The position numbers and the translations under genes are program-made. Under the pieces are notes generated by a model that did no database searches, was not told where the DNA came from, and worked only from the letters and a program-made list of their open reading frames with translations. DNA of 64,000 bases, taken from the NCBI RefSeq assembly GCF_018310535.1, contig NZ_CP074102.1, positions 6,324,001-6,388,000 on the forward strand. Reading direction: 5' to 3'. This document shows positions 18,836 through 60,944 of this stretch, piece after piece (positions within the stretch are counted from its first letter, which is position 1; every line of letters starts with the position of its first letter). The DNA comes from Streptomyces mirabilis (GTDB lineage: Bacteria > Actinomycetota > Actinomycetes > Streptomycetales > Streptomycetaceae).

Positions 18836-20563
18836 TCAGCCGTACAGCTCGAACAGTCCGGTCACATACGCCGTCAGCCGTTCGCCCAGCAGCTCGGGGG
18901 TCAGGTCCGTGCGCCCCAGTTCCCGCCACGGCACCGCGAGCTTCTCGGCGTCGGGGGAGTAGGCCAGAGCGTCCAGCAGCCGCCAGTACAAGTGCTCCTC
19001 GGCGTCGGCCGGTCGGCGTCCGCCGTGTGCCTCGTACCGCGCGCGGAACCCCAGGCCGTACGCCTCCCCGTGCAGCAGCGCGAGGGCCGTGGAGCAGTGG
19101 GCCACGTCCAGGTCGGCGGGCCCCCACGAGGTCTCCACCCAGTCGACCACCCCGCTGATCCGCAGCGCGTCGCCCGCGCCGGTGAAGAGCACGTTGCCGG
19201 GATGGAAGTCCCGGTGCAGGAAACACCCTTCGTACGCCGGGGGTTCGCGCCGGATCACGTCCACGGCCCGCTCCCACAGCACGCCCCGGGGCACACGGAC
19301 GCGTTCGGGCGAGGTCCATGCCTGGTAGGGGCGCGGGCGGTCGGCGGGAACCACCGCGTGGATACGGGCCAGTTGGCCGGCCAGCAGGTCGATGCGCCGG
19401 TCCAGGTCCTCCTCGTCGACCCGTACCCCGCCCGGCAGCGAGGACATCAACAGCGAGGGGTGGTCGCAGTGTTCGGCGGCGGCGTCGACGGCCTGGAGCT
19501 CGGGCGTGGGCACGTCCTCGTACGCGGCGAGCAGGGTGAGGACGGACGCCTCGCGGGTCAGCAGGCCGGGCGCATGACGGCGGTAGAAGGGCTTCACGAA
19601 CGACCGCAGCACCAGACCCGTACCGTCGTCGAGGGCGAGCCGGCGCATCTGGGAGCTCCAGCCGCCGCGCAGGGCCGTGGACTCCCGTACGCTCCTGCCG
19701 GCCGGAAGCTGTTTGGCCACCCAGCCGCGGGTCGCGGTCCACCCCCGCTCACCCAGTCCCACGAGTACGGCGTCCACGAACCGCGCCCGGTCGGCGGCGT
19801 GTTCGCGCAGCCACAGGCCCAGCATGTGGTCGGCATCGGGGAATTCGAGCCGGGTGAACTGGGCACGGGCGGTGAGCGCGTCCGTCACGGCCTCGGTGAC
19901 GGCGGGCGGGATGACGGCGTCCGTACCGGGTACGGCGAGGACCGCACGGCCGTCGTACCCGCGCAGCACATCGAGCGCGGGGGCCTGCCGCCAGCTGTCC
20001 GGCGCCCGGATGATCTCGCTGAAGCGCCCTCCCCCACTCTCGACCTCGCTCGAGCGGGAGGTACTCCTGCCCTCCCCGAACGGAACCTGCCACGCCTCGG
20101 CGCCGTACACCGCGGGCGCGCACAGGCCCAGCGCCACCACGCGCCGCCCGTAGTGCGCGGCGAGATCGGCCACCGTCTGGCCGCTCATGCTGAACCCGAC
20201 GAGGATCAGCGGACCGTCCGCCGGGACCGACGCGTCGATGACGGAGACGGCCTGCTCGAAGCGTCGGCGCAGGCTCAGGTCCTTGAGTTCGCCCGAACTT
20301 TCGCCATGCCCGGAGAAGTCGAGGGCGAGGCCCCGGCAGCCGCGTGCCACGAACTCCTCCAGCAGCGGCAGCAGTCGCTCCTTGTTGCCGAGGCCCGCGC
20401 CGTGCAGCAGGACGACGGTGGCCGTGGCGCCTCGGCCATCGCCATGGCCGCTGCCATGGCCGTCGTCACCGTCGCCGCTGACGCAGCTCAGTCGTTCACC
20501 GTCGTGGTCGTGTGCGAAGGAGGCGAGCATCCGCCCATTCACCCATGCCCCCCCATGACCCAC
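18836..20563 (-). CDS. Alpha/beta hydrolase fused to an aminoglycoside phosphotransferase-like kinase
   Basis: One uninterrupted 575-codon ORF encoding two enzymes. Residues 45-270 form an alpha/beta hydrolase: oxyanion region VLLHGAG (51-57), nucleophile Ser125 in GFSMSG, probable acid Asp215 and His246 (DADHML). Residues 285-575 form an APH/choline kinase-like domain with the Brenner motif HRDFHPGNVLF (His450, Asp452, Asn457) and VVDWVE (Asp474). A natural role would be hydrolysis of an ester or amide and phosphorylation of the product, but the substrate is unknown. Residues about 164-180 (GEGRSTSRSSEVESGGGR) are encoded by a dispersed palindromic repeat inserted in frame. Confidence 0.85.
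   Translation of the reverse strand: MGHGGAWVNGRMLASFAHDHDGERLSCVSGDGDDGHGSGHGDGRGATATVVLLHGAGLGNKERLLPLLEEFVARGCRGLALDFSGHGESSGELKDLSLRRRFEQAVSVIDASVPADGPLILVGFSMSGQTVADLAAHYGRRVVALGLCAPAVYGAEAWQVPFGEGRSTSRSSEVESGGGRFSEIIRAPDSWRQAPALDVLRGYDGRAVLAVPGTDAVIPPAVTEAVTDALTARAQFTRLEFPDADHMLGLWLREHAADRARFVDAVLVGLGERGWTATRGWVAKQLPAGRSVRESTALRGGWSSQMRRLALDDGTGLVLRSFVKPFYRRHAPGLLTREASVLTLLAAYEDVPTPELQAVDAAAEHCDHPSLLMSSLPGGVRVDEEDLDRRIDLLAGQLARIHAVVPADRPRPYQAWTSPERVRVPRGVLWERAVDVIRREPPAYEGCFLHRDFHPGNVLFTGAGDALRISGVVDWVETSWGPADLDVAHCSTALALLHGEAYGLGFRARYEAHGGRRPADAEEHLYWRLLDALAYSPDAEKLAVPWRELGRTDLTPELLGERLTAYVTGLFELYG
20031..20075. repeat. Palindromic CTCGAGCG repeat inside the hydrolase domain
   Basis: The run CCCCCACTCTCGACCTCGCTCGAGCGGGAGG matches repeat modules at 25541, 32653 and 42831 apart from a few changes. 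Here it lies inside the hydrolase coding sequence without breaking the frame. It adds a short Ser/Glu/Gly-rich loop between the nucleophile and acid residues. Confidence 0.8.
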
Positions 20564-25003: not shown

Positions 25004-25474
25004 GTGGACAACAGGCAAGCAATCGGATCGTGGCTCTCCGGACCCCGCGCGGCCCTGGAGGACGCCGGTGCCGACCTCGGATACCGAGGCGAACAGCTGG
25101 GTCTGCCGGAACAGGGCCCCGGCTCCATCGCCCGCCCCGGCCGCAGGCTGGGCGCCCTCGTCATCGACTGGGCCCTGTGCCTGTTGATCGCATACGGACT
25201 GCTCACCCACGGCTACAAGCCGGGGTCGACGGGCAACTGGGCCCTGCTCGTCTTCTTCGTCCTGGGCGTCCTGACCGTCGGTACGGTCGGCTTCACCCCG
25301 GGCAAGCGCCTCCTGGGCCTGCGGATCGTCCCCGAGGGCGGCGGCCGTCTCAACCCGCTGCGTGTCCTGCTGCGCACCGCCCTGCTGTGCGTGGCCATCC
25401 CCGCCCTGATCTGGGACCGCGACGGCCGGGGCCTGCACGACCGCATGGCCCGCACGATCGAGGTCCGGGCCTAG
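25004..25474 (+). CDS. RDD-family membrane protein
   Basis: A 156-residue integral membrane protein. A soluble N-terminal 50 residues (from MDNRQAIGSWL) precede the RDD domain: RPGRRLGALVIDWALC starts the first helix, with two or three further segments and a terminal DRDGRGLHDRMA. The motif Arg-Asp-Asp is altered to Arg-Leu...Asp in the first helix. The GTG start is chosen over an upstream ATG at 24974 because homologs begin with this segment. The stop codon TAG is formed by the target site and first base of a MITE-like element. The function is unknown; some RDD proteins are transporters. Confidence 0.82.
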   Translation: MDNRQAIGSWLSGPRAALEDAGADLGYRGEQLGLPEQGPGSIARPGRRLGALVIDWALCLLIAYGLLTHGYKPGSTGNWALLVFFVLGVLTVGTVGFTPGKRLLGLRIVPEGGGRLNPLRVLLRTALLCVAIPALIWDRDGRGLHDRMARTIEVRA

Positions 25475-25697
25475 GGCCTGTCCGGCGGATCATGCCGGAG
25501 ACGCGGGGCTTGGCAGGCCCATCTGCGGCGTTGTCGTCACTCTCCCCCAAGCTCTCGACTTCGCTCGAGCAGGGAGGGACCCCCATCGCTCCGCTCGACT
25601 CCCTCCTCCGCCTTGCAGCTGGACGCACCAAGCCCCCGCTCACCTGTGCTTATGAGGCGCCGTCGCTTCCCTCCGACCTGATCCGCCGGACAGGCCC
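25474..25697. mobile_element. MITE-like element with 19-bp terminal inverted repeats and TA duplication
   Basis: The ends GGGCCTGTCCGGCGGATCA and its perfect complement bound 224 bp of non-coding sequence, flanked on both sides by TA. TIRs of this type are common to Streptomyces transposons, so this looks like a non-autonomous derivative. It contains the palindromic CTCGAGC repeat module at 25541-25589. No transposase fragment was seen. It lies immediately after the RDD gene and supplies the final G of its TAG stop. Confidence 0.8.
25541..25589. repeat. Palindromic CTCGAGC repeat inside the MITE-like element
   Basis: TCTCCCCCAAGCTCTCGACT followed by TCGCTCGAGCAGGGAGGGAC and CCCCATCGC. It matches the copies at 20031, 32653 and 42831. 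Its presence inside a TIR-bounded element raises the question whether the module is mobile itself or has been carried. Confidence 0.8.
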
Positions 25698-25707
25698 TAG
25701 CGACCGG

Positions 25708-32415: not shown

Positions 32416-32722
32416 CTGCGGGCCCGGTGGGGGCTGGTCGCGCAGTTCCCCGCGCCCCTGAGGTGGGGGCTTCGCCCCGTGTGCTCCGGCCGCCCAGATT
32501 GGTTTGGCTGCGGGCCGGTGGGGGCTGGTCGCGCAGTTCCCCGCGCCCCTGACGGGGCGCTCTTGTCGGCGCCGGTTCACATTTTCAGCCCGTCCGGCGT
32601 TTGAGGACGAGGCCGATCGGGGGTTTGGGGGCGGAGCCCCCGAGTGGGGATGGTGGGGGTCCCCCCTGCTCGAGCGAAGCCGAGAGCTCGGGGGAGGGTA
32701 GGGGCGGCGGGGGCGAGGGACG
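32416..32722. repeat. Modular GC-rich intergenic repeat, copy 4 (most complete)
   Basis: The 466-bp gap is almost wholly repeat. In order it has CGCGCAGTTCCCCGCGCCCCTGA twice (about 32436 and 32528), CCCGTCCGGCGTTTGAGGACG (about 32589), GATCGGGGGTTTGGGGGCGG then AGCCCCCG (about 32612), the palindromic CTGCTCGAGCGAAGCCGAGAG module (32653-32698), and TAGGGGCGGCGGGGGCGAGG. It lies just past the epimerase 3' end. It shows every module in one place, so it is the reference copy for the family. Confidence 0.85.
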
Positions 32723-42478: not shown

Positions 42479-43165
42479 ATGGGCGGATGGGGACGGAAGC
42501 GGGCGTTCCGCTGGGCTCTGGTGGCCGGGGCGGTCGCGGCCGTGGCGGCGTGCGGGCCGGTGGACACGGGGGCGGCCGCGCGGCCGAGTGCGACGCGGGC
42601 CCACGGCACCTCGGTCGCCTCCGGCGGGGCGTGTGTCTTCGTCAAGCCGGACGGCGCGCAGAAGTTCGGGCACGTCGGCTGGGGCTTCCGGATCACCGGC
42701 ACCGACCGCTGGGTGTACGGCGCGGTGGAGAACCCGTCGAACGCGCTCTACACCCCGCCCGGCCGCGACATCGGCGCCTGGCACGCGGAGGGCACGTACG
42801 GGCGGATGCTCGGCGACATGTCACGTGACGCGCTCCCCCAAGCTCTCGGCTTCGCTCGAGCAGAGGGGACCCCCATTCCAGGGAAGTCCACCCACCCGTA
42901 CAGCCGCTACCGCTGCACCGACTCGTCGACCAGTGACGTGAAGGCCGCCCGCGCCATGATCGGTACGGTCGAGGAGCGGGGCTTTCTCGTCGGCGTCGAC
43001 CCGCAGACGGGGGACCTCGACTCGCGCGACTGCCTGGACGCCACGTACGACGTCCTCAGGGCGTACCGGACGCGGCACCTGACACCCGCGTACCCGGCGG
43101 AGATTCCGAACATGTGGGTGGAGACGCTGGTGCTGTGGTCGGACGGCGCTCTGAAGCCGCGGTGA
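42479..43165 (+). CDS. Lipoprotein of unknown function containing an in-frame repeat insertion
   Basis: A 228-residue exported protein. The signal peptide ends in lipobox AVAAC near residue 24. The mature domain has GHVGWGFRITGTDRWVYGAVEN, a pattern of a papain-like or CHAP-like fold, with Cys at TACVF-like GACVFV and later RYRCTD and SRDCLD. Residues corresponding to ALPQALGFARAEGTPIPG are encoded by the dispersed palindromic repeat at 42831-42878, which sits between MLGDMSRD and the following KSTHPYSRYRC. The ATG has a GGGGG site upstream. Function unknown. Confidence 0.8.
   Translation: MGGWGRKRAFRWALVAGAVAAVAACGPVDTGAAARPSATRAHGTSVASGGACVFVKPDGAQKFGHVGWGFRITGTDRWVYGAVENPSNALYTPPGRDIGAWHAEGTYGRMLGDMSRDALPQALGFARAEGTPIPGKSTHPYSRYRCTDSSTSDVKAARAMIGTVEERGFLVGVDPQTGDLDSRDCLDATYDVLRAYRTRHLTPAYPAEIPNMWVETLVLWSDGALKPR
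42831..42878. repeat. Palindromic CTCGAGC repeat inside the lipoprotein gene
   Basis: GCTCCCCCAAGCTCTCGGCT, TCGCTCGAGCAGAGGGGACC and CCCATTCC lie inside the coding sequence in frame. Compared with 25541 the difference is a handful of bases. It extends the protein by about 15 residues in a surface-exposed stretch. Confidence 0.8.
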
Positions 43166-60901: not shown

Positions 60902-60944
60902 CGGTTCCCTCCGGGGGTCGAGCGGGGGGACCTCCTCAGCTCCG

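Follow-up and report, generated by a model that had tools for sequence, protein, structure and literature searches.

A short palindromic element of Streptomyces that replaces four or five target bases and lies in frame within protein-coding genes

The stretch of DNA analysed here (the window) comprises 64 kb of the Streptomyces mirabilis genome and harbors four copies of a short palindromic element, two of them within genes, one within a MITE and one in an intergenic gap (sites A to D, Table 1). All four copies had been named in the original prediction, and their coordinates are refined here.

Table 1. Copies of the element discussed in the text and the features that host them
Feature	Position	Strand	Context
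Site A, short-form element with one extra base, 41 bp	20030..20070	+	In frame, net +12 codons
Site A host ORF	18836..20563	-	Fusion of alpha/beta hydrolase and APH-type phosphotransferase
Site B, long-form element with one extra G, 44 bp	25543..25586	+	Inside a MITE
Site B host MITE, 228 bp	25472..25699		Ends TAGGGCCTGTCCGGCGGATCA and its reverse complement, read by eye
Site C, long-form element, 43 bp	32653..32695	-	Intergenic repeat-rich gap
Site D, long-form element, 43 bp	42834..42876	+	In frame in a lipoprotein-like gene, net +13 codons
Site D host ORF, 252 aa	42407..43165	+	Putatively lipoprotein-like, by the look of its N-terminus
pheT copy (L324)	G242:C1:1843000-1844270		In frame in phenylalanyl-tRNA synthetase beta

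As read from the genome's own copies, the element occurs in a long form of 43 bp, TCCCCCAAGCTCTCG(G/A)CTTCGCTCGAGCAGGGGGGACCCCCAT, and in a short form of 40 bp, in which AG at the left and A at the right are missing together, with individual copies spanning 40-44 bp. Sites B, C and D carry the long form, whereas site A, the copy first placed at 20031, has the short one. A search of the window with a 32-base core (up to 3 mismatches) gave 2 matches compared to none in 100 shuffles, while the 11-base centre alone stayed within chance (4 matches, a number reached by 24 of 100 shuffles). Genome-wide, a 19-mer core (up to 2 mismatches) detected 39 copies compared to 0 for a reversed control, 24 in forward and 15 in reverse orientation, with no bias by replication arm when judged by eye. 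The window yielded no Rfam match at the gathering score. At 60918-60932, 15 bases are identical to part of the short form's right half and possibly represent a degenerate or partial copy.

Folding of a single strand of the element gave a hairpin closed by CCCCC/GGGGG, which was only modestly more stable than shuffles (z -0.7 to -2.4). Among 83 distinct copies, hairpin pair 11-28 showed a compensatory change (C-G in 67, T-A in 7, C-C in 7 and C-A in 2) and the outer pair 3-36 was loosely kept (C-G in 53); given the seven C-C combinations and the loose outer pair, conservation of the hairpin is imperfect. Both forms are free of stop codons in all six frames, and the segment encoded by the insert is of the LPQALGFARAGGTP type. 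An adaptive reading of this openness was rejected, as 33% of GC-matched 43-mers of the window were equally stop-free, and shuffling gave stop-free sequences in 35% of cases for the long form and in 53% for the short form.

At site D, whose host ORF matched neither Pfam nor PDB entries, eight empty relatives carry 4 bp (ACTA or ACCA) in place of the element, whereas at site A, where the element is antisense to the host gene and falls in the hydrolase part of the fusion protein, empty relatives carry 5 bp (GTCGC and alike). An identical site A protein was also found (P0123). Alignment with relatives lacking the module showed that most of them differ in residues at the insert (DAHYPGK versus DALPQALGFARAEGTPIPGK in the lipoprotein, FGEGDGRF versus FGEGRSTSRSSEVESGGGRF in the hydrolase-kinase). 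The original claim that both genes keep their frame was borne out; its figure of 15-17 added residues counts the element's own codons, and compared to empty homologues the net gain is 13 residues in the lipoprotein and 12 in the hydrolase-kinase. The MITE at site B has near-perfect terminal inverted repeats, and two copies of the same MITE (L073 and L075) lack the element. A second element-bearing copy of this MITE (L021, G000:C1:8382352) lies ~1.2 kb from a Y1 transposase gene (L142). Comparison of the window MITE and L021 with L089 revealed two insertions 6 bp apart in one MITE family. At site C, four loci (L061, L062, L063 and L098) carry GTCC in place of the element, with right flanks that vary in length. 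The surrounding region (32580-32700) is an intergenic composite of several repeats, including CAGCCCGTCCGGCGTTTGAGGACGAG, and G375 harbors what is apparently the same repeat, with the element between GTCCTCAAAC and GACGGGCTG.

Empty sites were sought in eight named relatives using the flanks of the genome's own copies; the junctions were read and the losses computed, with element ends set by hand from the junction strings. Such sites do exist in the DNA of relatives, with flanks up to 98% identical: an empty orthologue could be read for 23 of the 39 copies (with L015 and L021 counted separately although they belong to one MITE family). Of the remaining copies, L152 was left out as unreadable, L003, L153 and L154 lacked a clean empty site, and 12 had no empty orthologue. 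The filled and empty alleles differ by a swap, C|RYYN| becoming C|TCCCCC...CCCCCAT|. At 16 of the 23 sites, at least one relative showed a loss of four bases (15 sites when only the closest relative is considered); the other 7 showed a loss of five, and, as bases were lost at all 23 sites relative to the closest relative, target duplication is absent. The element has one extra base at the 5-base sites L015 and L021 (one MITE family), L030 and L149, so that the net gain there stays at 36 or 39 bp, and the 5-base site L020 may represent a 4-base loss with a 1-base flank change. The loss differs among relatives of one site at L006, L016, L023 and L027. Measured against the closest relative, 18 of 23 sites had a net gain of 36 or 39 bp, equal to 12 or 13 codons, and the remaining five gained 35, 37, 37, 37 and 38 bp.

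The swap is seen most directly at L014 (L157 versus L181), where near-identical flanks enclose four bases in the empty allele (GTCCC|GCTC|GACGG) and 40 bp in the filled one (GTCCC|40 bp|GACGG). Clean empty junctions were likewise read at L001 (TGACC|GCCG|TCCAC), L022 (CCC|GTCG|CCGA), L018 (AGC|ACTC|GGGC), L024 (AAC|GCTA|GCGC) and L025 (CCC|GCCA|GGCC), and the usual empty form of the lipoprotein site is GACGCCC|ACTA|CCCCGGC; Streptomyces sp. WM6386 (L277) carries the short form at exactly the four bases where the window has the long form. In the closest relatives, the lost bases of the 16 four-base sites read R (15), Y (15) and Y (14). Among the matches listed, 83 filled flank pairs from many genomes, which were hand-copied and cleared of near-duplicates by eye (so that a few may be off by one position), had C at -1 in 74, C at -2 in 61 and C or G at +1 in 81. 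The target is weak, nnCC|RYYN|S, and occurs in both coding and noncoding DNA. The idea that the target is a hairpin loop was not supported: 21 empty sites were unpaired at 0.53 compared to 0.43 for 560 control positions (p 0.087). Nested insertion of the element into its own loop was observed at L023 in the S. mirabilis genome and, among the matches listed, in G009, G090 and G138. S. olivochromogenes lacks 11 of 24 readable own copies (by span or junction, some being called filled by span alone), which indicates recent movement. At L006 (G000:C1:2531875), the three closest relatives are empty and four more distant ones are filled, with strongly diverged loops and conserved ends, a pattern that possibly reflects excision or repeated insertion.

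Further intragenic copies, for which the original prediction had proposed a search, were found in large numbers in this genome and in others. Own coding sites with an empty relative comprised 12 in frame (gain 36 or 39 bp) and 1 broken. By Pfam names, the in-frame hosts include a GNAT acetyltransferase (L010), a MaoC hydratase (L014), a PfkB kinase (L018), a beta-galactosidase (L022), a glycerophosphotransferase (L029) and a sensor kinase (L149), alongside an MFS transporter (L148, at its N-terminus), a luciferase-like protein (L155), the hosts of sites D (L017) and A (L030), L025 and L027; L027 and L148 were judged coding from their translations, and L025, which has no Pfam match, by codon score. 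The broken case, L002, gains 38 bp and disrupts the apparent start of a short-chain dehydrogenase, as judged from the translation, while own sites called noncoding gain 35-39 bp. As most net gains amount to 39 or 36 bp, the typical insertion leaves the frame unshifted.

In other genomes, we hand-chose 40 copies among the matches listed, outside obvious host repeats: 14 had a strong coding signal on both sides, 25 failed the coding test (L311 and L320 owing to a gene boundary close by) and 1 lay between genes on two strands. All 14 strongly coding copies keep one frame. Ten of them were scanned with Pfam, and their hosts include phenylalanyl-tRNA synthetase beta, enoyl-CoA hydratase, ABC ATPase, aldehyde dehydrogenase and AlkZ-like glycosylase. 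The copy in pheT, a gene that is normally essential, encodes a segment that is an insertion relative to the solved chain 7k9m_B. A plasmid gene annotated as a transposase, TnpB-like by reading, also has an in-frame element, and a LysR-like gene in G033 is apparently frame-broken by its copy (L279, by eye).

Within its order, the element is nearly confined to Streptomyces. In a draw of genomes from across the order, it was present in 191 of 273 from Streptomyces and in 1 of 5 from other Streptomycetaceae, and was absent from all 15 belonging to other families; the reversed control matched once each in two genomes. In separate searches, the 19-mer (up to 1 mismatch) was present in 62 of 101 Streptomyces genomes, with up to 50 copies, and the 43-mer (3 mismatches allowed) in 109 of 392 genomes, with no control match in either case. 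All 25 plasmid records carrying the element are from Streptomyces, and no match was found among 50,697 phage records.

Single sites differ in occupancy among lineages. Among 121 homologues of the site D lipoprotein, 16 carry the insert at the same codon position and in the same orientation (7 long, 9 short) and 105 lack it, the remnant-like P0081 being counted among the latter. On a tree built with the insert columns removed, the filled and empty states require 15 changes, at least 9 of which are forced by strongly supported branches; this number is no lower than with shuffled labels, which required 15.3 changes on average and gave an equal or lower count in 254 of 500 shuffles. A single clade was rejected for the seven long rows (p 5e-15) and for the nine short rows (p 2e-64), in tests based on quick trees, with groups named after the tree was seen. 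A search of 49 named genomes recovered the lipoprotein gene in 22, of which 20 were empty, 1 carried the short form and 1 a degenerate insert of long length. The site A insert is present in the window's clade and in P0144, possibly in degenerate form in P0176 and P0223, and P0135 looks frame-shifted. The beta-galactosidase site is filled in G132 (L308; flanks 77% and 85%), with the same bases and orientation as in the window's genome, and is empty in 6 of the 7 relatives examined, including three that share 94-96% identity with the window's genome; the seventh (L162) carries an unrelated longer sequence. Judging from the trees, some sites appear to have been filled repeatedly in different lineages, and this recurrence may come from target preference, selection against insertions elsewhere, or allele exchange.

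Alternatively, and in our view less likely than not, filled alleles may have been exchanged, or the element may have been lost many times after an old ancestor had carried it. Streptomyces do recombine, some copies are old and degenerate yet in frame (L065/L278, P0019 and P0027), P0081 looks like a remnant, and the L006 pattern, with nearer relatives empty and more distant ones filled, would fit as well. Against this stand the occurrence of both forms at the same 4 bp (short in L277, long in the window), the rejection of each form as one clade, and the beta-galactosidase site, which is filled in a distant genome and empty in six nearer ones.

Taken together, we consider it probable that the element is a non-autonomous mobile hairpin of 43 or 40 bp that is driven in trans, replaces 4-5 target bases and is mostly frame-neutral. 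An enzyme acting in trans would move the hairpin, most likely by cutting the two target strands ~4 nt apart, with the resulting overhangs being lost and not filled in. Such a reaction would delete the target bases that ordinary transposons duplicate; to our knowledge, no transposase class swaps ~4 target bases for the element upon insertion. Because the typical insertion is frame-neutral, copies at tolerant positions would survive and persist as peptides of 12-13 residues, whereas others would be purged by selection. More tentatively, and with real doubt, it can be suggested that the swap of ~4 target bases for 40 or 43 bp renders the element frame-neutral by construction, and that the element returns to identical tolerant codons across many lineages, thereby supplying peptides of 12-13 residues to proteins throughout the genus. 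Several observations count against the mobile hairpin: no mobilising gene was found, some sites lost five bases, the loss can differ among relatives of a single site, some net gains are 35, 37 or 38 bp, L002 and L279 look frame-broken, the hairpin is imperfectly conserved and only modestly more stable than shuffles, and targets did not lie significantly in hairpin loops.

No autonomous partner or mobilising gene came to light. Nothing pointed to the element as the end of a larger IS: closely spaced and contig-end copies, inspected by eye, led to an apparent MITE (G095) and to unrelated genes, and the only close pair spaced widely enough to hold a gene (L279) showed no transposase in between by eye. 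One candidate mobiliser is an IS200/IS605-like Y1 (RAYT) transposase moving the element as a REP-type single-strand hairpin, which would agree with its size and shape. Across 101 genomes, Y1_Tnp counts correlate with copy number (Spearman 0.34, p 0.0005), and a Y1_Tnp gene of this genome (L142) is located ~1.2 kb from one of the copies. However, the element has no GTAG or CGTC foot, the genome's other five Y1_Tnp loci (of six) are free of copies within 1.5 kb on each side, and target bases are lost here, whereas IS200/IS605 insertion is not known to lose any. Moreover, Y1_Tnp is present in only 29 of the 101 genomes, and 12 of the 27 genomes with at least 5 copies have no Y1_Tnp match, including G026 with its 29 copies. 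On account of these copy-rich genomes, RAYT was rejected as a necessary driver: a Y1 transposase is not required, and we hold movement by this route to be improbable. Finally, that the segments are native protein parts or low-complexity expansions, for which nothing speaks beyond the open reading frame, is almost certainly wrong, being refuted by the empty sites, by the presence of the same DNA in MITEs, gaps and unrelated genes, and by the 105 of 121 lipoprotein homologues without it.

The element was compared to known systems. Rickettsia palindromic elements (RPEs) are described as palindromes of 105-146 bp that are fused in frame to 19 reading frames and for which target duplication is listed as unknown (PMC2229807); PMC3767692 presents hotspots as one reading of RPE-4/6/7 sites and lists phenylalanyl-tRNA synthetase beta among the hosts, and RPEs are further treated in PMC10969869. 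Like RPEs, the Streptomyces element is a mobile palindromic repeat found both between genes and in frame in unrelated protein genes, among them phenylalanyl-tRNA synthetase beta, which hosts inserts in Rickettsia (PMC3767692) and the element in G242. It shares the in-frame insertion into genes, but not the length of about 100-150 bp: it is 40-44 bp long, GC-rich and swaps 4 or 5 target bases, compared to the 105-146 bp given for RPEs in PMC2229807. This comparison was made by description rather than by RPE sequences, and the element is nearly restricted to Streptomyces within its order. The likeness to protein-coding small palindromic elements drawn in the original prediction is apt as to behaviour, and its interpretation is supported, the placement of the inserts in protein loops being putative.

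REPs, described in PMC3733652 as short hairpin repeats, some of them inside genes, resemble the element in both respects. They differ from it in that the element ends in TCCCCC...CCCCCAT with no GTAG/CGTC foot, has two length forms and replaces target bases; an associated RAYT/Y1 gene is absent from 12 of 27 copy-rich genomes, though counts correlate. Like MITEs (70-300 bp with TIRs, PMC3733652), the element is non-autonomous, multicopy and presumably moved in trans, but it loses target bases with no target duplication, whereas MITEs leave target duplications (PMC2229807). The accessible parts of the RPE and REP papers cited here describe neither a Streptomyces element nor a fixed target swap, and no description of the element was found in the openly accessible literature (subscription papers and preprints lying outside this scope), its own letters used as a query included. 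We would class the element as a kind of protein-coding palindromic element distinct from RPEs, REPs and classical MITEs, with RPEs the closest in behaviour.

Most of what is known about protein-coding palindromes comes from Rickettsia and related bacteria. For the element described here, empty and filled alleles are numerous in bacteria that are free-living and genetically tractable, its target swap is a sharp mechanistic clue, and its recurrence makes the question of whether inserted selfish DNA becomes protein directly testable. The element may also account for odd insertions of 12-13 residues in Streptomyces proteins.
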